Virus record (IMG/VR): IMGVR_UViG_3300006916_000254
Span: 1 to 29,263 of that record
Direction: 5' to 3' (one strand)
From: a virus
DNA length: 29,263 nucleotides
Shown: in pieces, positions 1 to 9,378 of the stretch
Layout: every line of letters begins with the position of its first letter
How positions within the stretch are numbered: the first letter of the stretch is position 1
The notes under the pieces: generated by a model
Database searches by the model: none
Seen by the model: only the letters and a program-made list of their open reading frames with translations
Told to the model about the DNA's origin: nothing
Program-made: the position numbers and the translations under genes

Positions 1-64
1 TAGGAACAATAGACTTGCAGAGCGTATCAGGCTTAATGCTGGTTACTCTAAGGCTGGCCATTAG
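1..64 (+). CDS. 3' end of an unidentified early gene (cut by window edge)
   Basis: An open frame enters from the left edge (codons from position 2) and ends at TAG 62-64, leaving about 20 C-terminal residues that are rich in Arg, Asn and Ala and end in KAGH. The G of the stop codon is the first base of the hammerhead motif that follows. This matches the arrangement at 541, where a better supported gene also stops on the first hammerhead base, and that parallel is the main reason for believing the frame. No family can be recognised from so short a piece. Confidence 0.45.
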   Translation, partial: RNNRLAERIRLNAGYSKAGH

Positions 65-122
65 CAACACTGAAGAGCTCTAATTGAGCGAAACTAGGCG
101 GCTTGTCTGCCTAGTCTGTTGC
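64..122 (+). ncRNA. Type I hammerhead ribozyme, copy 1
   Basis: All core elements of a hammerhead are present in order. Stem I is GCAACA (64-69) with TGTTGC (117-122). The CUGANGA box is CTGAAGA (70-76). Stem II is GCTC (77-80) with GAGC (86-89) around a TAATT loop. The GAA core is 90-92. A93 pairs with T115 (the 15.1-16.1 pair), and stem III is CTAGGC (94-99) with GCCTAG (109-114). The cleavage-site base is C116. Position 7 of the core is A rather than the common U, but this position is variable in the family. The open end is stem I, hence type I. Cleavage is expected between 116 and 117, leaving a 5'-OH RNA upstream of the zinc-ribbon gene. No clear stem I/stem II loop contact is visible, so speed in vivo is uncertain. 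Confidence 0.88.
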
Positions 123-132
123 AAAAAGCAAC
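118..132 (+). promoter_or_regulatory. Post-cleavage 5' hairpin following hammerhead 1
   Basis: GTTGC (118-122), loop AAAAA, GCAAC (128-132). The 5' arm is also the 3' strand of hammerhead stem I, so this hairpin and the folded ribozyme exclude each other. It would sit one base from the new RNA 5' end after cleavage. A role in product release or protection of the processed mRNA end is inferred. Confidence 0.6.
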
Positions 133-158
133 CAAACAAACAACAGGAGTAATAACTT

Positions 159-305
159 ATGTTATGCTATGATTGCGGCGCCTCTGAAGGTACTTTATTA
201 AAAGAATTTCAGGAAGAGCCCGAAAAGAATTACAGCTGGGAAGACTTGGCAAAAATGACTGATGTGTGTGCCAGCTGCGGTTCTGAAAATGTAAAAACAA
301 ACTAA
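159..305 (+). CDS. Small zinc-ribbon protein, 48 aa
   Basis: The ATG at 159 is preceded by AGGAGT (145-150). The 48-residue product has two CxxC pairs: C3 and C6 at the N terminus (CYDCG) and C37 and C40 (CASCG). This is the usual four-cysteine layout of a zinc ribbon. Between them lies an acidic, charged stretch with a Trp. Such small early proteins in T7-like phages often bind host proteins or nucleic acid, but nothing here identifies a partner. It lies directly downstream of hammerhead 1 and would be the first gene on the cleaved RNA. Confidence 0.8.
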   Translation: MLCYDCGASEGTLLKEFQEEPEKNYSWEDLAKMTDVCASCGSENVKTN

Positions 306-328
306 CAAACAAATAGGAGTAAAAAACT

Positions 329-541
329 ATGTACTTTGATAATGTTAAAATAAAAGTGTTGGGCAATGAATATGACAAAAAAGGCAAGCCGTTCACTGTA
401 ACAACTCACAACTTTAATTTTTATGATGGCGTGAGAGCTAAGGACTTGGCGAAGTTTTTAGAAGAGACACAAGAAAATCTCGGCTATAGATGGAATGGCA
501 AAGTCTCAGTTAATATTGAGATTGACGCAACGGAAGAGTAG
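329..541 (+). CDS. Hypothetical early protein, 70 aa
   Basis: ATG 329 with AGGAGT at 314-319. The product is an unrecognised, soluble-looking protein with alternating hydrophobic residues near the N terminus (MYFDNVKIKVLG), a central FNFYDG segment and a beta-like C terminus (VSVNIEIDATEE), so a small alpha/beta fold is plausible. The TAG stop (539-541) ends on the first base of hammerhead 2. It therefore lies on the RNA segment bounded by the two cleavage sites, together with the zinc-ribbon gene. Function unknown. Confidence 0.75.
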   Translation: MYFDNVKIKVLGNEYDKKGKPFTVTTHNFNFYDGVRAKDLAKFLEETQENLGYRWNGKVSVNIEIDATEE

Positions 542-601
542 TAACACTGAAGAGCCTTTAATAGGCGAAACTAGGGTTGACTTTCAATCCTAGTCTGTTA
601 C
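541..601 (+). ncRNA. Type I hammerhead ribozyme, copy 2
   Basis: Same architecture as the copy at 64-122 but with different stem bases. Stem I is GTAACA (541-546) with TGTTAC (596-601). The core box is CTGAAGA (547-553). Stem II is GCCT (554-557) with AGGC (563-566) around TTAAT. The GAA core is 567-569, and A570 pairs with T594. Stem III is ten pairs, 571-580 with 584-593, closed by CTT. The cleavage base is C595. The two copies keep the core bases while stems I, II and III change by compensating substitutions. That is strong evidence for selection on RNA structure. Expected cut: 595/596, upstream of the 192-residue gene. Confidence 0.9.
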
Positions 602-608
602 AAATAAC
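597..608 (+). promoter_or_regulatory. Post-cleavage 5' hairpin following hammerhead 2
   Basis: GTTA (597-600), loop CAAA, TAAC (605-608). As after hammerhead 1, the 5' arm is taken from the 3' strand of stem I, and the hairpin would start one base inside the cleaved RNA end. The arms differ from copy 1 (GTTGC/GCAAC) yet remain complementary. The stem is short, so it is only marginally stable on its own. Confidence 0.5.
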
Positions 609-658
609 CTTAAGACTTGACGGCGATTTGTAAACAACAAACAATAGGAGTGTGATAT

Positions 659-1237
659 ATGCTAGACTGGAAACAACGCAGCGTCTTAGTTGACAATGAA
701 AAGACTAGACGGCGTTTTTTATCTGATGAAGAGTTCAAATTTGATTGCTCTATATCAGACAAACTTATGGGTCATTGGTACTTAGGCCGTTGCGATTATG
801 AGGCAGCAGGCGTAAGTAAAGAAGACTTCCATAAGTATAGACTAAACAGAGATAAACTTTTAGACTATCACCAATTTACATTTTCTTATGTAAACTGTGA
901 TAATCAAAATAGTTTTGAAAAGTTTAGTAGGTTATGTGAGAAGTACAACATAAAAGATATTGAATGGATGCCTAAGACTAAACGAGAAAATGATGGCTAC
1001 AATAAAAGTTACATTCAACAACTTATATTGGACTTTGTACACAACAATGAGAAATCTAAGAAAAAACCTTTACTGGCCAAACTTAGAGCTAAATTCCCTG
1101 ATGTTAAACCTATTAGTCTTAACACTCAGTTAAACAATTTGTTAAAACACAGGGCTCTTGAAATAGATACAAAGTACAAAACTAAACCGTTAGTAATAGA
1201 AGGTGCCTACTTTAAAAGTTGGTATTCAACTAAATGA
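659..1237 (+). CDS. Hypothetical early protein, 192 aa
   Basis: ATG 659 with AGGAGTG just upstream. The protein is unrecognised. It is rich in Lys, Asp, Asn and aromatic residues, with no membrane segment. The C-terminal half (about residues 110-192) contains a helix followed by a basic segment and a leucine-rich helix (LNTQLNNLLKHRAL), compatible with a small winged-helix or other DNA-binding fold, though this is only an impression. The stop TGA (1235-1237) overlaps the ATG of the next small ORF (1234), so the two are probably translationally coupled. It would be the first gene on the RNA released by hammerhead 2. Confidence 0.75.
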   Translation: MLDWKQRSVLVDNEKTRRRFLSDEEFKFDCSISDKLMGHWYLGRCDYEAAGVSKEDFHKYRLNRDKLLDYHQFTFSYVNCDNQNSFEKFSRLCEKYNIKDIEWMPKTKRENDGYNKSYIQQLILDFVHNNEKSKKKPLLAKLRAKFPDVKPISLNTQLNNLLKHRALEIDTKYKTKPLVIEGAYFKSWYSTK

Positions 1238-1584: not shown

Positions 1585-4032
1585 TTGGTTAAATTAATAG
1601 AGAGCATGCCAACTTACAATGATGAGCTGGCGCACGAAAAAGAGATGGCTGAACTTGGTAAAAATAGAACCAACAAAAGGCTTGTCTCACATGTAGAACG
1701 AGAAGAAGAGAGTGTCACCAGTTACGGTAAAGTTATGGTGGCCAACACTATCAGACCTTTAGCAATGGCTATTGCTGAATGGATTGAAGATACGTCTAAA
1801 AAGACTATAGGTAAACCGCCTATTGCTTTTGTGAAACTTTGCGAAGTGGAGCCTGAAGTATTGGCTTTGATTACTGGTAAGCATATTATTAATACAATTA
1901 CTCAGTATAAACCACTTACTGCAACCTGTATCTCACTTGGTGGTAAAGTTGAAACTGAAATATCATTAAAGAATTTCAAAAACTTAAACCCTGAACTTTA
2001 TCAAACTGTTAAAGCTGACTTGGATAAACGTTCTTTTAACTACACTTATAAAAGACGTAAGTTAAGAGAGAGTGCTAAACGTGATGAAGTGATGAGCTGG
2101 GAGGAGTGGACTACACCAACTAAACTTCATGTAGGTATTAGACTTGTTGAACTTATGATTTATGCAACAGGTTTAATTGAGATAGGAACTGAAACTGTCA
2201 AACATAAAAAAGCTAAAATAATAAAACAGACAGATAAGACTAGAGAGTGGATTAAAAACAGGAATGGTTTTAATGAGTTATTAAACCCAGAGTATCTACC
2301 CACAGTTATGCCGCCAAAGGCGTGGTCAACTGTAGTTGGCGGTGGGTATTGGACTAAAGAGTTACCTGAGTTGGACTTAGTTAAACAAAAGAATAAACTG
2401 TTTAAAAAAGAACTTGAGAACTTTGACATGCCTGAAGTTTATGCTGCTGTGAATACCATGCAGAATACACCGTATAAGATAAACAAGTTTGTTTTAAAAG
2501 TTATGCAGGAAGCTTGGGACAAAGGTTTGGCCATTGGTGGTATGCCACCTAACGTTAACTATGACATACCAAACAAACCACACGACATTGAGACAAACGC
2601 AGAGAGCCGTAAAGACTGGAAAAGAAAAGCTGTAATGGTTCACACTGAAAATGCTAGGATGTTTTCTAAAAGATTACTCTATGCTAAAATTATGTGGCTT
2701 GCAGAAAAATTTAAAGATTATCAAACTTTATATTTTCCATTGCAATTAGATTTTAGAGGTAGAGCATATTGTGTACCTGCTTTTCTAAATTATCAAAGTA
2801 TTACAGGTGCTAAAGCTTTATTGTCGTTTGCCAGAGGAAAAGAAATCACAAAAGAAAACAAAGGTGATTACTGGCTGGCTATTCATGGAGCCAACATGTT
2901 TGGACAAGATAAAATATCTTTAGAAGAGCGTGTTGAGTGGGTAAAAAACAATGAAGATATGATAATCAAATGTGCTGAAGACCCATTTACGAATAGACAA
3001 TGGGAAGATGCATCAAATGGCTATCAATTTTTAGCGTTCTGTGATGAGTGGTCTAAGTTTAAAAAAGAAGGTTATGGTTTTGTGTCTCACATACCAGTGA
3101 GTGTTGATGGTTCATGTAATGGACTTCAAGTTTACTCATTGATGTTAAGAGACAGTAAAGCTGGTAAGCTTGTTAACTTACTGCCTACAGATAAACCACA
3201 AGACATCTATCAATTAGTTGCTGATGCTGTAATTGAAAAACTAAAAGTTGATGCTGCGGAAAATAAACCGTATGCACAACTATGGTTGGATTATGGTATC
3301 AAACGTTCAACAACAAAGCGTAGTATTATGACTATCTGTTATGGTTCAACTAGATATTCATGTACAGACTTTGTGATTGAAGATTTAACTAAAAGAAAAG
3401 ACAAAGGTGAAAACCATCCATTTATTGACGACCTGTTTAGGCCTGCAAGTTACCTTGCTGGTGTAATCTGGGACAGTATTGGTGACAACCTTGCTTCAGC
3501 TAGAATTGGAATGGACTACTTACAAACCATTGCAAGAGTTGTTGCGAGAGAGCAACTTCCAATACATTGGATAACACCTGTTGGCTTCCCTGTTTATCAG
3601 TCTTACCCTGAGATGAAATCTAAAAGAGTTAAGGCTATGTTAATGGGTGAAGTTATTAAACCAAGAATTAACACTGAGACTGACTTAACTGATAAGTTAA
3701 GAATGGGTAACGGTGTTGCGCCAAACCTTGTTCACAGTGTTGACAGTGCTGCTATGATGAAGACTGTTAATATTGCACACAAGAATGGTATTCAAAACTT
3801 TTGTAATGTACATGATAGTTTTGGAACCACAGCTGGTGATGTTGAAGTTTTAAACCAGTCGTTGAGAGAAGCGTTTGTAACTATGTTTTCTGAAAATGAT
3901 ATTTTAGAAAATTTTAGAAATGACGTTTTGAAACAATTACCTGTTGAACTTCATAAAAAAATACCTGAGGCACCTAGTAAAGGTAACTTAGATATAAACC
4001 AACTACGGGAAAGCAAATTCTTCTTTGCGTAA
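1585..4032 (+). CDS. Single-subunit DNA-directed RNA polymerase (T7 gp1 type)
   Basis: Transcribes the phage middle and late genes from phage-specific promoters. The 815-residue length is close to T7's 883. Catalytic motifs are intact. Motif A is VDGSCNGLQ with D508 (T7 D537). Motif B is TKRSIMTICYGS with K578 and Y586 (T7 K631 and Y639, same 8-residue spacing). Motif C is VHDSFGT with D744 (T7 D812). The chosen start is TTG at 1585, 6 bases after AAGGAG (1573-1578). An in-frame ATG at 1606 lacks a well-placed ribosome site. The C terminus ends FFFA (T7 ends FAFA), matching the family's aromatic foot. It is preceded by predicted promoter P1 and followed by P2, so it can amplify its own synthesis. 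Confidence 0.98.
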   Translation: MVKLIESMPTYNDELAHEKEMAELGKNRTNKRLVSHVEREEESVTSYGKVMVANTIRPLAMAIAEWIEDTSKKTIGKPPIAFVKLCEVEPEVLALITGKHIINTITQYKPLTATCISLGGKVETEISLKNFKNLNPELYQTVKADLDKRSFNYTYKRRKLRESAKRDEVMSWEEWTTPTKLHVGIRLVELMIYATGLIEIGTETVKHKKAKIIKQTDKTREWIKNRNGFNELLNPEYLPTVMPPKAWSTVVGGGYWTKELPELDLVKQKNKLFKKELENFDMPEVYAAVNTMQNTPYKINKFVLKVMQEAWDKGLAIGGMPPNVNYDIPNKPHDIETNAESRKDWKRKAVMVHTENARMFSKRLLYAKIMWLAEKFKDYQTLYFPLQLDFRGRAYCVPAFLNYQSITGAKALLSFARGKEITKENKGDYWLAIHGANMFGQDKISLEERVEWVKNNEDMIIKCAEDPFTNRQWEDASNGYQFLAFCDEWSKFKKEGYGFVSHIPVSVDGSCNGLQVYSLMLRDSKAGKLVNLLPTDKPQDIYQLVADAVIEKLKVDAAENKPYAQLWLDYGIKRSTTKRSIMTICYGSTRYSCTDFVIEDLTKRKDKGENHPFIDDLFRPASYLAGVIWDSIGDNLASARIGMDYLQTIARVVAREQLPIHWITPVGFPVYQSYPEMKSKRVKAMLMGEVIKPRINTETDLTDKLRMGNGVAPNLVHSVDSAAMMKTVNIAHKNGIQNFCNVHDSFGTTAGDVEVLNQSLREAFVTMFSENDILENFRNDVLKQLPVELHKKIPEAPSKGNLDINQLRESKFFFA

Positions 4033-4047
4033 GGTTCCCATAGTAGA
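4030..4047 (+). promoter_or_regulatory. Predicted phage RNAP promoter P2 (upstream of SSB)
   Basis: TAAGGTTCCCATAGTAGA, 17 of 18 bases identical to P1. Its TAA is the stop codon of the RNA polymerase gene. It stands 25 bases before the SSB gene, so it would drive the replication block. Likely first transcribed base G4046. Confidence 0.75.
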
Positions 4048-4071
4048 ATAAAAAACCATAAAGGAGAAAAA

Positions 4072-4695
4072 ATGGCAAAAAATATGTATGCCAAAATTGT
4101 TAGTCCAGAAGGCGTGTCTAAATACGCATGGCTAACAAAACCTGACACTAAGTTTGACAAAGACGGACACTTTAAAGTTAATCTTGTCGTTAGTGCAGAA
4201 GAGGCTCAGCCATTAATCCAACAGATTGATGCTGAGATGAAAAAAAGTGCTGAGATAGCTAAAGAGAAAAATAAAAAAGCTGTCAAAATGGCAAACCCAC
4301 CGTATGAAACAGAGACTGATGACACTGGTGCAGAAACTGGTAACATTGAGTTTAAGTTTAAACGTAAGGCACAAATCATAGCATCAGATGGTAAAGTTAT
4401 ACCTTTTAAGGTAGCTATCTTTGATAGTTCTGGAACACCTATGACTGATACTAATGTTTGGTCGGGTAGTAAAATGAAAGTCAGTGCGGAATTAGTACAC
4501 TGGTACACCGCAATGGCAGGTGCTGGCGTGTCTCTTAGATTAAGAGCAGTACAAATAACTGAACTTGTTGAAGGCGGTTCAGACAATGCGTCTGGATATG
4601 GCTTTGATAAAGTTGATAATGGTTATGTAGCACCAGAAAAGGTAAAAGAGGATGTGGCAGCAAAGACTGAAGAGAGCCAAGAAGCTGACTTCTAA
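4072..4695 (+). CDS. Single-stranded DNA-binding protein (T7 gp2.5 type)
   Basis: Coats single-stranded DNA at the replication fork and coordinates polymerase and helicase. The 207-residue product begins with a beta-rich OB-fold-like region (MYAKIVSPEGVSKYAWLTKPD, with FKVNLVVS further on). It has a charged helix at about residues 50-75. The C-terminal tail is acidic and ends EADF. An acidic tail with terminal Phe is the hallmark of gp2.5 and is the contact for DNA polymerase and helicase. Its position between RNAP and endonuclease I matches T7. Start ATG 4072 follows AAGGAG. The 3' end overlaps endonuclease I by 44 bases. Confidence 0.93.
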   Translation: MAKNMYAKIVSPEGVSKYAWLTKPDTKFDKDGHFKVNLVVSAEEAQPLIQQIDAEMKKSAEIAKEKNKKAVKMANPPYETETDDTGAETGNIEFKFKRKAQIIASDGKVIPFKVAIFDSSGTPMTDTNVWSGSKMKVSAELVHWYTAMAGAGVSLRLRAVQITELVEGGSDNASGYGFDKVDNGYVAPEKVKEDVAAKTEESQEADF

Positions 4696-5071
4696 ACAAG
4701 TTGGACTTAGATATGGTTTTCGTTCTGGACTTGAAGAACAAGTTGCTACAGAATTGAGAAACAAAAGTGTTATGTATGAGTTTGAAAAGACTAAACTAAA
4801 ATATGTTAAGCCTCAAAAAGCTCATACATACACACCTGATTTTTATTTACCAAAACAAAATATTTATATTGAAACTAAAGGTTTGTTTACTACACAAGAC
4901 AGACAAAAAATGCGTCTTGTAAAAGAACAACATCCAGAATTAGATATTAGATTTGTATTTAGTAATTCAAATTCAAGAATTACAAAGAAATCAAAAACAA
5001 CTTATGCAATGTGGTGTGAGAAGTATGGTTTTAAATATGCTGACAAACATATACCTAAGGAGTGGATATGA
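4652..5071 (+). CDS. Endonuclease I, Holliday-junction resolvase (T7 gp3 type)
   Basis: Resolves branched DNA and helps degrade host DNA. The 139-residue product matches the T7 enzyme closely in motifs: FRSGLEEQ near the N terminus with E28/E29 (T7 E20), YTPDFYLP with D63 (T7 D55), and IETKG with E74 and K76 (T7 E65 and K67). Further matches are EQHPELDIRFVF and ADKHIPKEWI. The start at 4652 lies inside the SSB gene in another frame. It gives an N-terminal extension of about 22 residues before FRSGLE, slightly longer than in T7. The stop TGA overlaps the amidase ATG. Confidence 0.97.
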   Translation: MWQQRLKRAKKLTSKQVGLRYGFRSGLEEQVATELRNKSVMYEFEKTKLKYVKPQKAHTYTPDFYLPKQNIYIETKGLFTTQDRQKMRLVKEQHPELDIRFVFSNSNSRITKKSKTTYAMWCEKYGFKYADKHIPKEWI

Positions 5072-5493
5072 GTAACTTAAGAAAAGATACTAAGTATATT
5101 GTCATTCATTCGTCTGACACGCATCCAGAAGAAAATATACAAGTTAAAGATTTAGAAGTACAACACAGAAAAGAAGGTTTATTTTCATGTGCATTTCACA
5201 AAGTTATAACTAGAGATGGTGAAGTGCAGGATGGAAGAGATATTCAGATAGCTGGCGCACACATAGAAACTACAGCTGAGCTATCTAACAAAAATTCCAT
5301 TGGTGTCTGCTTAATTGGTGGACTGACACCAGAGGGACAACCTGATTGTAATTTTACTTTCAAACAGTATGAGAGTTTAGTTAAGCTCATAGATGTTTTA
5401 AAAGCCAATTACAAAAAGGTTGAAGTTGTTGGTCACAGAGATGTGACTAGCTCCAAAGCTCCGCATTTCAATGTTAAAGAATTGCTGAGCTAG
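5068..5493 (+). CDS. N-acetylmuramoyl-L-alanine amidase family protein (T7 gp3.5 lysozyme type)
   Basis: T7 lysozyme cuts the amide bond between muramic acid and peptide and also binds phage RNAP to restrain transcription. The chosen start is ATG 5068, five bases after AAGGAGT. An upstream GTG at 5062 overlaps that ribosome site. The 141-residue fold is clear: VIHSSDT with H14 (T7 H17), SIGVCLIGG, and VVGHRDV with H123 (T7 H122) and K130 (T7 K128). Two active-site positions differ. F43 replaces T7 Tyr46 (AFHKVI against GYHFII). The CPSF motif carrying zinc ligand Cys130 is replaced by PHF, where H133 might substitute. Enzyme activity is therefore uncertain; the RNAP-regulating role could still hold. 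Confidence 0.93.
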   Translation: MSNLRKDTKYIVIHSSDTHPEENIQVKDLEVQHRKEGLFSCAFHKVITRDGEVQDGRDIQIAGAHIETTAELSNKNSIGVCLIGGLTPEGQPDCNFTFKQYESLVKLIDVLKANYKKVEVVGHRDVTSSKAPHFNVKELLS

Positions 5494-5506
5494 TTTGTTT
5501 GTTAAG

Positions 5507-5538
5507 CTCTGGGTGTAAAAACCCAGAGTGAAACACTC
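5507..5538 (+). other. Two overlapping RNA hairpins upstream of primase-helicase
   Basis: CTCTGGGT (5507-5514) pairs perfectly with ACCCAGAG (5521-5528) around GTAAAA. A second stem, GAGTG (5526-5530) with CACTC (5534-5538), shares GAG with the first, so only one can be complete at a time. No T run follows. Candidate for an RNase III-type processing site or a translational control element of the primase gene. Function unproven. Confidence 0.5.
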
Positions 5539-5561
5539 AAAATATTTTAGGAAAAAAATTT

Positions 5562-7163
5562 ATGCAAGAAACACAAAGTAACTTTTTATATCATACACAC
5601 TGTGAAGAGTGCGGCTCTAGTGATGCCAACTCTGTCTATGATGATGGACATACTTTTTGTTTCTCATGTAACACAATCAAAAAAGGAGTAGATGATTTGA
5701 AACCACAACAAACAAACGAAGTAGAAGATGTTAAATTTATTTCAGGTGACGTAAAAGAATTAGCTAAAAGAAAAATAGATTTAAGAACTACACAAAAATT
5801 TAATTATCAAATTGGTAGTTGGTTTGGCAGACCTTGTCAGATTGCAAACTACTATAACAAAGATAAACAATTAGTTGCACAAAAATTAAGATACCCAGAT
5901 AAAACTTTTCAGTGGTTGGGTGATGCAAAGCAATCAACATTGTTTGGTCAACACTTATGGGCTGACAAAGGTAAGATGCTTATTGTTACTGAAGGTGAGA
6001 TAGATTGTTTATCTGTATCTAAAATTCAAGACAACAAATTCCCAGTAGTAAGTATAAAGTCAGGAGCACAAGGAGCTAAAAAAGATATTCAAAAAGAAAT
6101 AGAATGGCTTGAAGGTTTTGAGTCTGTTATATTTATGTTTGACCAAGATGAGTATGGACAAAAAGCGGCTGTTGAATGTGCTAAATTATTATCACCTAAC
6201 AAAGCAAAGATATGTACGTTACCATTAAAAGATGCTAACGAAATGTTATTACAAAACAGAACTAGAGAATTACTTAATTGTATGTGGGCAAGTAAACCAT
6301 ACAGACCTGATGGAATAGTTTTAGGTAGTGATTTATGGAATGAAATACAAACAGAAGATAACTATGTTAGTGTTGATTATCCATTTGAATGTTTAAATAA
6401 AAAAACTCATGGACTTAGAAAAGGTGAGTTAGTTACCATCACTGCTGGTAGTGGTGTAGGTAAATCAAGTTTTTGCAGACACGTAGCATTGCATTTATTG
6501 CAAAAGGATTATTCAGTAGGCTACATTGCATTAGAAGAGAGCGTTAAAAGAAGTGCACTCGGTATCATGGGCGTTCAAGTTAAAAAGCCTTTACATCTTA
6601 CGAGAGAAGGAATTAGTAATGAAGAACTTGAACGTACCTTTAAAGATACAATAGGCAATGGTAAGTTTTATTTATATAATCACTTTGGTTCTACTGTTGC
6701 TGACAATTTATTATCTAAAATAAGATACTTAGCAAAAGCATGCAGCGTTGACTTTGTTATACTAGACCATTTACACATGGCTTTGTCTGCTATTGGTGAT
6801 GAAACTACAAATGATGAGAGAAAACTTATTGATTATTTTGTCTCTAAATTAAGAACGCTAGTTGAAGAAACTGGTATTGGTTTAATACTTGTATCACATT
6901 TAAAAAGACCTGAAGGTAACAAAGGTTATGAAGATGGTGTAGCAGTATCAATGAATAGTCTTAGAGGCTCTGCTTCTATTGGTCAATTATCTGATATGAT
7001 TTTAGCATTATCAAGAGACTTACAATCTTCAGAAAATATTTCTCAAGTAAATATACTTAAGAATAGATTTAGTGGTGAAACAGGTAAGGCTTGTAGTTTA
7101 CAATATGATTTAGCTACTGGATGTTTGAATGAAATTCAATCAGAGGTGGCTAATGAGTTTTAA
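5562..7163 (+). CDS. Primase-helicase (T7 gp4 type)
   Basis: Makes RNA primers and unwinds DNA ahead of the polymerase. The 533-residue product has all the expected parts: an N-terminal zinc-binding domain with C14, C17, C33 and C36; a TOPRIM primase core (VTEGEIDCLSV and FDQDEYGQKA); a RecA-like helicase with Walker A GSGVGKSS (K301, T7 K318), Walker B VILDHLHMA and the VSHLKRPEG sensor motif; and an acidic C-terminal tail ending VANEF. In T7 the tail with its terminal Phe contacts the polymerase. Length is close to T7's 566. The ribosome site is weak (AGGA) and lies after the paired hairpins. Its 3' end overlaps the next small gene. Confidence 0.97.
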   Translation: MQETQSNFLYHTHCEECGSSDANSVYDDGHTFCFSCNTIKKGVDDLKPQQTNEVEDVKFISGDVKELAKRKIDLRTTQKFNYQIGSWFGRPCQIANYYNKDKQLVAQKLRYPDKTFQWLGDAKQSTLFGQHLWADKGKMLIVTEGEIDCLSVSKIQDNKFPVVSIKSGAQGAKKDIQKEIEWLEGFESVIFMFDQDEYGQKAAVECAKLLSPNKAKICTLPLKDANEMLLQNRTRELLNCMWASKPYRPDGIVLGSDLWNEIQTEDNYVSVDYPFECLNKKTHGLRKGELVTITAGSGVGKSSFCRHVALHLLQKDYSVGYIALEESVKRSALGIMGVQVKKPLHLTREGISNEELERTFKDTIGNGKFYLYNHFGSTVADNLLSKIRYLAKACSVDFVILDHLHMALSAIGDETTNDERKLIDYFVSKLRTLVEETGIGLILVSHLKRPEGNKGYEDGVAVSMNSLRGSASIGQLSDMILALSRDLQSSENISQVNILKNRFSGETGKACSLQYDLATGCLNEIQSEVANEF

Positions 7164-7365
7164 TGATGTTGAACAAGAAGCTGTAAGTTGGACTGAATAT
7201 CTTATGGGACATTTATTGAAAGCAAAACACAGGCCAGATGAAGACATCACTGTGTTAGTTCCAAATGAAACTGTAAAAGATATGATGGACACAGCAATTT
7301 CAGAATTGTGCACACAATCAACTGAAGCTTGGCAACTTATAACAAAAATACAAACGGTACATTAA
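7153..7365 (+). CDS. Hypothetical protein, 70 aa
   Basis: The frame is open from ATG 7129, but ATG 7153 is preferred. It follows AGAGGTGG at 7143-7149 and overlaps the primase-helicase stop by only 11 bases. The product (MSFNDVEQEAVSWTEYLMG...) is acidic, predicted helical and without membrane segments or recognisable motifs. In T7 several small accessory genes lie between gp4 and gp5; this one occupies that place but I cannot assign it to any of them. Confidence 0.7.
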   Translation: MSFNDVEQEAVSWTEYLMGHLLKAKHRPDEDITVLVPNETVKDMMDTAISELCTQSTEAWQLITKIQTVH

Positions 7366-7366
7366 T

Positions 7367-7645
7367 ATGAAAATCCCAGACTTAAAAGTAAAAATGCCAT
7401 TTAAAATAATATGGTGGAAAGATATAAATTCAGATGCTGCATGGCAGACTATGGATGCTGCTAAAAAAAGTAAACCAACTATTTGTGTATCAACTGGATG
7501 GTTATTATTAAAAAATAAAAACGTAACTATTATTTGTTCTGATTTTAATTATGATGAAAGTGATAACGCAACTATATCTGATGTTGGTAACGTAACAACA
7601 ATACCAACTTGCAATATACTTTCAATGAAAGATGTTAAGATATGA
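7367..7645 (+). CDS. Hypothetical protein, 92 aa
   Basis: ATG 7367, one base after the previous stop. The unrecognised product starts with a basic segment containing IIWWKD, then has a KPTICVSTGWLLLKNKNVTIIC region that looks like two beta strands with a turn. It could be a small beta-rich protein. No membrane span is obvious. Its TGA stop overlaps the DNA polymerase start (ATGA, 7642-7645), so the two genes are probably translated in tandem. Confidence 0.7.
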   Translation: MKIPDLKVKMPFKIIWWKDINSDAAWQTMDAAKKSKPTICVSTGWLLLKNKNVTIICSDFNYDESDNATISDVGNVTTIPTCNILSMKDVKI

Positions 7646-9378
7646 GATACTGTTTTGATATAGAAAGTAATGGATTTGTAGACACAGCAGATAAAATACA
7701 TTGCATTGTATTAAAAGATATAGATACAGGCGAAGTATTTAAACTTCCAAACTATCAATCGTTACTTAAACTAGAAGCAGCTGAATTAGTTATAGGTCAC
7801 AACATAATTAAATTTGATATACCTTTAATTGAAAAATTATATCCTACATTTATGTTAAGAGCAAAAGTATTTGATACATTAGTTGCTGCTAGATTATTAT
7901 ACCCTGATGTAACTGAACAAGATTTTAAAAGAAAAGATTTTCCAAAAGATTGTATTGGAAGACACAGTTTAAAAGCATGGGGTAATAGAATAGGGGAATA
8001 CAAAGCTGAGTTTGAGTCTGACTTTAATAATTTTACACCAGAGATGTTAGAATACTGTGTGCAAGATGTTGAAGTAACACACAAACTTTATAACTTAATA
8101 CAGAAAAAAGGTTACTCTGAAGAGAGCATGCAGTTAGAGCATGATGTGGCTGAACTTATTTATAGACAAGAAGTTTATGGATTTAAATTTAACACACAAG
8201 CTGCACAAGAATTATATTCTAAATTAAATGCTAGAAGATTAGAACTTGAAGATGAATTACAAAAAGTATTTCCACCTGAAACAGTTAATACACCTTTTAT
8301 TCCTAAAGTAAATAACAAAGCAAAAGGATATGTTAAAGGTGAAGTGTTTTATAAACAAAAAGTTGTTGTCTTTAATCCGTCAAGCAGACAACACATAGCT
8401 AAAAGATTAATTGATAAATATAATTGGAAACCAACTGAGTTTACTAATGATGGTAAACCAAAACTAGATGAAACTATTTTAGAAAAGCTAGAATATTCTG
8501 AAGCTAAATTATTATGTGAGCATTTCTTATTAGATAAAAGAATTGGTCAACTTGCTACAGGTAATCAAGCTTGGTTAAAGCATGAGAAGAATGGAAGAAT
8601 ACATGGCACATGCAATACTAATTCAACAGTGACTGCACGTGCAACTCATTCTTACCCTAACATGGCTCAAGTACCTAGTGTGTCTGTGCCTTACGGTAAA
8701 GAATGTAGAGCGTTATTTACAGTTCCAACACATAAAAAACTTGTAGGCGTTGACGTCTCAGGTTTAGAGGTGAGAATGTTGGCTCACTATATGGCTAAGT
8801 ATGACAACGGTGACTATGCAAAGGTTGTGTTAGATGGTGATATACACACAGAGACACAAAAACTAGCTGGTTTAGATAGCCGTGACTTAGCCAAAAGATT
8901 TTATTACTGCTTCTTATATGGTGGTGGTGTAAAAAAGATAGCGTTAGTTACAGGTAAAACAATTAAGGAAGCTGGTCAAATTAAAAAGCGTTTCTTAAAT
9001 AACTTGCCTGCATTAAACAAATTAATAACGCAAGTCCAAGAAGCTGCTACACGTGGTTACTTAGTCGGATTAGATAAGAGACAAGTAAAAGTACGTTCAC
9101 CACATGCAGCCTTAAATACTTTATTACAATCCAGCGGAGCCATTGTCTGTAAACAATGGTTAGTTGAATTTGATAAAAGGATAAGAAATAGTGTTGCAGA
9201 CATACATCAAGTTGTATGGGTACATGATGAAATACAAATAGAATGTCCTGAAAATATTACAGATGCTGTAGGTAAAATTGCTGTAGATGCTATAGAACAA
9301 ACTGGTAAACATTTTAAACTACGAGTACCTTTAACAGGGGAATACAAAATAGGAGACAACTGGAGTGAAACGCACTAA
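7642..9378 (+). CDS. DNA polymerase, family A with 3'-5' exonuclease (T7 gp5 type)
   Basis: Replicative polymerase. The exonuclease domain has FDIESNG (D6, E8), VIGHNIIKFDIPL and YCVQDVEVTHKLY. The polymerase domain has FNPSSRQHI, TARATHSYPNMAQVPS, motif A GVDVSGLEVRMLAHYM (D371, T7 D475), O-helix RDLAKRFYYCFLYGGG (R414, K418, Y422, Y426; T7 R518, K522, Y526, Y530), and motif C VHDE (D529, T7 D654). Y422 is the position equivalent to E. coli Pol I 762; Tyr there is the T7-like state. At 578 residues it is well short of T7's 704. Part of the difference lies before FNPSS, where T7 carries a longer linker, so thioredoxin dependence is uncertain. Confidence 0.98.
   Translation: MRYCFDIESNGFVDTADKIHCIVLKDIDTGEVFKLPNYQSLLKLEAAELVIGHNIIKFDIPLIEKLYPTFMLRAKVFDTLVAARLLYPDVTEQDFKRKDFPKDCIGRHSLKAWGNRIGEYKAEFESDFNNFTPEMLEYCVQDVEVTHKLYNLIQKKGYSEESMQLEHDVAELIYRQEVYGFKFNTQAAQELYSKLNARRLELEDELQKVFPPETVNTPFIPKVNNKAKGYVKGEVFYKQKVVVFNPSSRQHIAKRLIDKYNWKPTEFTNDGKPKLDETILEKLEYSEAKLLCEHFLLDKRIGQLATGNQAWLKHEKNGRIHGTCNTNSTVTARATHSYPNMAQVPSVSVPYGKECRALFTVPTHKKLVGVDVSGLEVRMLAHYMAKYDNGDYAKVVLDGDIHTETQKLAGLDSRDLAKRFYYCFLYGGGVKKIALVTGKTIKEAGQIKKRFLNNLPALNKLITQVQEAATRGYLVGLDKRQVKVRSPHAALNTLLQSSGAIVCKQWLVEFDKRIRNSVADIHQVVWVHDEIQIECPENITDAVGKIAVDAIEQTGKHFKLRVPLTGEYKIGDNWSETH

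Follow-up and report, generated by a model that had tools for sequence, protein, structure and literature searches.

In phage T7 the early mRNA is cut between genes by RNase III, a protein enzyme of the host. Tandem phage hammerheads were proposed in 2011 to cut transcripts into gene-length mRNAs, and those of prophage-type regions cleaved in vitro (PMC3088659), while in RiboJ (PMC6206723) the hairpin placed behind a hammerhead ends up at the 5' end of the mRNA, with more mRNA and protein as the result. The ribozyme class and the transcript-cutting idea are known already, and the view of an earlier note on the DNA studied here, that no system combining such a ribozyme with a hairpin had been described, is too strong, since the cutting was proposed in PMC3088659 and the layout is that of RiboJ. 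In the literature searched, which covered few subscription papers, we found no prior description of pelagiphage ribozymes, marine-phage hammerheads or RNase III-like roles, and both the pelagiphage setting and a ribozyme strand which refolds upon release appear undescribed there; a text search of PMC3088659 found no mention of refolding.

The window analysed is a whole virus record of 29,263 bases, which covers the left-hand portion of the genome of a T7-like pelagiphage. Its RNA polymerase gene, coding for a protein with 86% identity to the polymerase of Pelagibacter phage Eistla EXVC025P, forms the downstream boundary of the early region (Table 1). The hammerhead core pattern matched at two positions in the window, 70 and 547, as against no match in 100 shuffles, and with the structures derived from these matches the pair of hammerheads announced in the earlier note is indeed found at this place. 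At sites A and B alike the consensus core is complete, stem I measures 6 bp, stem II 4 bp, and stem III ends in GUC. Both sites fold into a three-way junction, and both carry the class-defining CUGANGA...GAAA...NUH (N7 free, H17 not G). By structural class they are real type I hammerheads, with self-cleavage itself a prediction. As cleavage is predicted after positions 116 and 595, the unit between them would span 117-595, in agreement with the length of 479 nt expected beforehand.

Table 1. Coordinates of ribozymes, hairpins and genes in the early region of the window.
Feature	Position	Strand	Evidence and details
TAG stop of upstream 140-aa ORF	62..64	+	final base is first stem I base of hammerhead A
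Hammerhead A, type I	64..122	+	core pattern, folding, stem covariation; stem I 64-69/117-122; core CUGAAGA 70-76; stem II 77-80/86-89, loop UAAUU; GAAA 90-93; stem III 94-101/107-114, then U115 C116; predicted cut between 116 and 117
Post-cleavage hairpin A, GUUGC/AAAAA/GCAAC	118..132	+	-5.2 kcal/mol, z -2.3; arm GUUGC 118-122, loop AAAAA, arm GCAAC 128-132; released strand of stem I forms the 5' arm
48-aa CxxC...CxxC (zinc-ribbon-like) ORF	159..305	+	within the predicted unit of 479 nt; leader CAAACAAACAACAGGAG
70-aa ORF, second gene of 479-nt unit	329..541	+	stop TAG 539-541, one base in common with hammerhead B stem I
Hammerhead B, type I	541..601	+	core pattern, folding; stem I 541-546/596-601; core 547-553; stem II 554-557/563-566, loop UUAAU; GAAA 567-570; stem III 571-593, then U594 C595; predicted cut between 595 and 596
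Probable refold of released strand, site B	596..636	+	596-605 with 626-636, one bulged A
192-aa ORF, first gene past hammerhead B	659..1237	+	DNA 703-841 resembles HTVC109P early gene gp06
RNA polymerase, single-subunit T7-type	1585..4032	+	phrog_414 E 1.6e-261, PF00940

An Rfam search of the whole window at E<=1 reported no hammerhead, and its sole match, SNORD108, was spurious. In a narrowed Rfam search, the best matches of site A were 22.9 bits with RAGATH-1-hammerhead (RF03152, cut-off 56.3) and 14.4 bits with Hammerhead_HH9 (RF02275, cut-off 52), both far short of the gathering threshold, and we claim the structural class rather than membership of either family. The window and the four array-bearing contigs that were checked carry no Rfam hammerhead annotation; Rfam overlooks such ribozymes in marine viral contigs.

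The 140-aa ORF whose stop begins site A is complete in a near-identical sister contig (L086, in which 8418-8420 is the same stop codon). This contig also contains the 48-aa zinc-ribbon-like ORF and has three ribozymes in total, the third being located upstream of the window's start. With regard to the genes of the predicted 479-nt unit, the 48-aa ORF had no match in Pfam or PHROG, and the 70-aa ORF had no match in PHROG and only sub-threshold matches in Pfam. Strings similar to ACTTGACGGCG (615-625) and ACTAGACGGCG (704-714) are present near the HTVC109P ribozymes and in stem III of the HTVC019P type; the window contains three such strings where 1.2 are expected (<=2 mismatches), which is not above chance.

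Relatives were taken from three pattern scans and one genome scan, polymerase-anchored loci and annotated phages, giving at least 349 unique type I hammerheads, which fall into at least 225 clusters when grouped at 85% identity. Of the at least 349 hammerheads listed, 275 have a stem I of exactly 6 bp, and the 180 non-redundant clusters with a stem I of at least 6 bp among the matches listed were used for the hairpin statistics; in these clusters all three stems vary in sequence with conserved pairing. In 27 pelagiphage-type sequences, 98% of the cells are paired and 12/18 pairs change on both sides, with a covariation of 0.58 vs 0.18 after shuffling, a score reached by none of 500 shuffles. 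Loop II is conserved and UNNNU-like and the tail past stem I is A-rich in the aligned clusters (among the matches listed), while the Watson-Crick complementarity between loop II and each of its flanks did not exceed that of swapped pairs, leaving a loop II/flank pseudoknot unsupported.

At least one hammerhead was found in 12 of the 15 cultured or named Pelagivirus records, some of them scanned in part (Eistla, HTVC168P, 142P, 031P, 109P, 304P, 019P, 022P, 131P, 201P, Ran and MedDCM-S35-C6), and every one of these ribozymes is on the coding strand, between genes and 5' of the RNA polymerase gene. A relaxed scan which covered some records in part gave no hammerhead in HTVC121P, HTVC105P and HTVC021P, nor in any of six non-Pelagivirus T7-like pelagiphages. 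A second kind of pelagiphage hammerhead, with a UA cleavage dinucleotide, a GCCGUCUA/UAGACGGU stem III and no refold hairpin, was observed in HTVC022P (2303-2353), HTVC019P (2954-3002), HTVC304P, HTVC131P, HTVC201P, Ran and MedDCM-S35-C6, where it is located upstream of the MarR-integrase-polymerase block.

Both hammerheads of the window begin on a TAG stop codon, of which one base is shared with stem I. The earlier note had suggested a search of related pelagiphages for its three-part unit after stop codons. In the relatives, the stop of the upstream ORF starts at -12 to +1 of the core in 160/188 clusters with a readable upstream ORF (a raw count among the matches listed). Most commonly it overlaps stem I or immediately precedes it, and 26 clusters (among the matches listed) use the UGA of the catalytic CUGANGA core as this stop. 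Within 120 nt past the cut, 159/225 clusters have a ribosome-binding site with a start codon, at a median of 33 nt (matches listed). Such anchoring of ribozymes to stop codons appears to be a new feature, undescribed in the literature searched (few subscription papers covered).

We consider it probable that the stop-anchored hammerheads cut the early polycistronic RNA during transcription, and that site A and a subset of the relatives produce a refolded 5' hairpin. The two type I hammerheads on early-gene stop codons would cut the nascent RNA and leave the early message in single-gene or few-gene pieces. The upstream mRNA would end in a folded ribozyme with a 2',3'-cyclic phosphate just past its stop codon, whereas the downstream mRNA would start with a 5'-OH, to which site A and the subset of relatives would add a hairpin, and would continue with an unstructured A/C-rich CAAACAAA-type leader and then a ribosome-binding site. 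Release of the strand and its re-pairing should disfavour re-ligation and should provide every mRNA with a 5' end that is defined and structured, and the hairpin may stabilise the RNA or aid translation. The ribozyme architecture, its covariation, the stop placement, the early location and the enrichment and covariation of the refold hairpin described below can be read directly from the sequences. From them we infer cleavage in infected cells, its co-transcriptional timing and formation of the hairpin after cleavage. The earlier idea that the early transcript is cut into cassettes is supported in this sense, as what is suggested by 12/15 Pelagivirus records having intergenic ribozymes, all of them in coding-strand orientation and 5' of the polymerase.

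Inactive motifs, or motifs with another role such as the production of circular or spliced RNAs through cleavage and ligation between sites, seem highly improbable to us. Hammerheads are able to ligate, the two copies flank a 479-nt block, and this possibility was raised in PMC3088659; however, such products were sought in that same study and none were found, phages with a single ribozyme were common in the Pelagivirus scan, ligation would be opposed if the released strand refolds, and the complete consensus cores and the covariation of the stems speak for activity having been retained.

The hairpin proposed in the earlier note directly past site A was borne out, as the predicted 3' product (117-140) folds into it with a free energy of -5.2 kcal/mol. 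Homologues of this hairpin have the forms GUUGC-aagug-GCAAC and GUUAC-aauaaau-GUAAC, and hence the ribozyme arm, the released strand and the downstream arm change together. That the arms differ between copies and yet stay complementary was a weak argument when based on the two copies of the window, but it holds in the relatives, in which one pair between released strand and downstream arm is AU in 11 and GC in 10 sequences, and in which the refold hairpins comprise 18 distinct arm combinations. A refold hairpin was counted if it was perfect, with at least 5 bp, a loop of 3-8 nt and its 5' arm within the released strand. By this definition it is present in 28/180 clusters (among the matches listed) vs 5.05 expected from 1000 dinucleotide shuffles of the tails, none of which gave more than 12, a count inflated by related sequences, so that only part of the 28 represent independent events. 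The subgroup with NNNACA arms has 20/67 (matches listed) vs 1.98 expected (maximum 7), and clusters outside this subgroup have 8/113 (matches listed) vs 2.93 expected. Swapping tails between ribozymes with different arms reduced the subgroup rate from 29.9% to 3.4%, and as the scan patterns stop inside the released strand, there was no selection for the downstream arm. Nucleotides 1-6 of the product have a mean pairing of 0.72 in the pelagiphage-type clusters (matches listed) vs 0.48 with shuffled tails (maximum 0.60), and other lineages have an independent, unrelated hairpin directly past stem I. Together these comparisons support enrichment and covariation of the refold hairpin in the relatives.

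If the ribozymes cut and the downstream complementarity were a by-product, it would be either a local direct repeat of the stem I 5' arm or an A/T-rich chance match, and we find this quite unlikely. The downstream arm is often identical to the stem I 5' arm, it is missing at many sites, and the excess outside the NNNACA subgroup is small (8 vs 2.9 expected, among the matches listed), but chance is excluded overall by the shuffles and swaps, the 3-8-nt loops put the arms at hairpin distance, and in the inexact-complement clusters the downstream arm matches the released strand in 6/32 vs 2 copying the 5' arm. In five relatives (L036, L048, L253, L277 and L308), G-U pairs join the released strand to the 5' arm whereas Watson-Crick pairs join it to the downstream arm, indicating that the downstream arm follows the released strand. 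This argues for retention of the hairpin in the relatives, rather than of a simple copy of the 5' arm.

No short refold hairpin was found in 152/180 clusters (among the matches listed), so that the common function does not depend on it, and with so many relatives lacking it the hairpin is better seen as an optional add-on than as an obligate part. Ribozymes without complementary downstream arms, which according to the earlier note would refute the design, do therefore exist (HTVC109P, the HTVC019P type and L287 are examples), and yet the hairpin is enriched and covarying.

The downstream arm could also act before cleavage, as part of a competing fold which steals the stem I 3' strand and ties cutting to transcription speed or translation, with the ribozyme active only in a short co-transcriptional window or when no ribosome is terminating at the overlapping stop. 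In a nearest-neighbour model without ribozyme tertiary energy, the hairpin beats stem I in the uncleaved RNA in 50 of the 62 cases that have one (mean P 0.70 vs 0.20), which would mean less cleavage unless co-transcriptional folding or tertiary contacts stabilise the ribozyme. The stop adjoins or overlaps stem I or the core in 160/188 clusters (among the matches listed), so that a terminating ribosome should cover the 5' strand, and in L197, L246, L253, L274 and L277 the hairpin loop holds a Shine-Dalgarno sequence. However, the energy model leaves out the tertiary contacts of the ribozyme, the hairpin is absent from the minimum-energy fold of 60-140 at site A, in which stem I is retained, most ribozymes share this stop placement yet have no competing arm, and an off-switch would leave the lineages with an independent 5' hairpin unexplained. 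We regard a competing fold as a serious rival, though not a very likely one, and a hairpin formed after cleavage remains our preferred reading.

In the five relatives with a Shine-Dalgarno in the loop (L197 from position 4847, L253 from 2550), the post-cleavage hairpin encloses an AGGAGG or GGGAGG ribosome-binding site, with arms AUAGC/GCUAU or AUGGC/GCCAU that show compensatory changes; it is possible that this represents a cleavage-driven translation switch.

While site A has a stable hairpin at the 5' end of its 3' product, at site B this would be achieved only via a longer, less certain pairing. The 4-bp hairpin assigned to 597-608 in the earlier note (GTTA-CAAA-TAAC) proved unstable, folding at 0 kcal/mol, and a match of at least 4 bp with a 3-8-nt loop is expected by chance at about 11% of sites (20.7/180, matches listed); we consider it misassigned. 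The released strand is predicted to pair with 626-636 instead, at -8.2 kcal/mol and with a probability of 0.92 for nucleotides 1-6 being paired, although this pairing is equalled by 5% of tail shuffles and the whole fold is unexceptional against shuffles (z -0.63). The helix is retained in L020 with U10-A changed to C10-G, and in L010 the released strand pairs with another downstream arm. Refolding at site B is thus possible on the folding model, rather than established.

The scans also gave several observations on related arrays. A 22,483-base viral record (L287) has twelve predicted type I hammerheads in 6.3 kb (2298-8601), approximately one per gene and each followed by a ribosome-binding site, with a refold hairpin possibly at one only; ten of its ORFs, searched as translations, had no confident family match. 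Some second-copy ribozymes (L101 at 2076-2148, L003, L004 and their relatives) have a large stem II extension, the 28-nt insert of which looks capable of forming its own hairpin. Core-pattern matches were also found on MAG contigs that had been binned as bacterial, i.e. L311 (Verrucomicrobia), L310 (Rickettsiales) and L308, L309 and L312 (other), which may be prophages or phage contigs; L311 contains three predicted ribozymes, each ahead of a similar GCGAGGTAAAA leader.

The order of stop codon, ribozyme, hairpin, unstructured leader and ribosome-binding site suggests a concrete role, the making of defined mRNAs. SAR11 are the most abundant marine bacteria, and the arrangement is found in cultured SAR11 phages. 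Only tentatively do we extend this to gene-by-gene operon cutting by stop-anchored hammerheads that would be widespread in marine phages, made one-way by the refolding strand, which in some lineages would also control access to the ribosome-binding site, with cutting possibly coupled to translation termination. As HTVC022P has a predicted ribozyme at 2303-2353 and RNA-seq of its infection has been published (PMC12753301, PRJNA1253180), the cutting is testable without new experiments.

Finally, we compared the locus with the three described systems. With the arrays of PMC3088659 it shares the consensus core, the same proposed outcome, and an arrangement in which single genes or short blocks are flanked by several coding-strand ribozymes, of which the window has two, L086 three and L287 up to twelve; it differs in its setting in T7-like SAR11 phages and other marine viral contigs, in the anchoring to stop codons, and in the 5' hairpins that refold in a subset. 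RiboJ (PMC6206723) was engineered from sTRSV, has a separate, appended 23-nt hairpin and is placed after promoters, whereas the elements described here are natural and intergenic, with a hairpin which reuses the released ribozyme strand. The proposed cutting resembles RNase III processing in T7 in that discrete mRNAs whose ends are structured would be cut from an early transcript, between genes located around the RNA polymerase gene and upstream of it, but where T7 uses a protein enzyme of its host, here the RNA itself should do the cutting.
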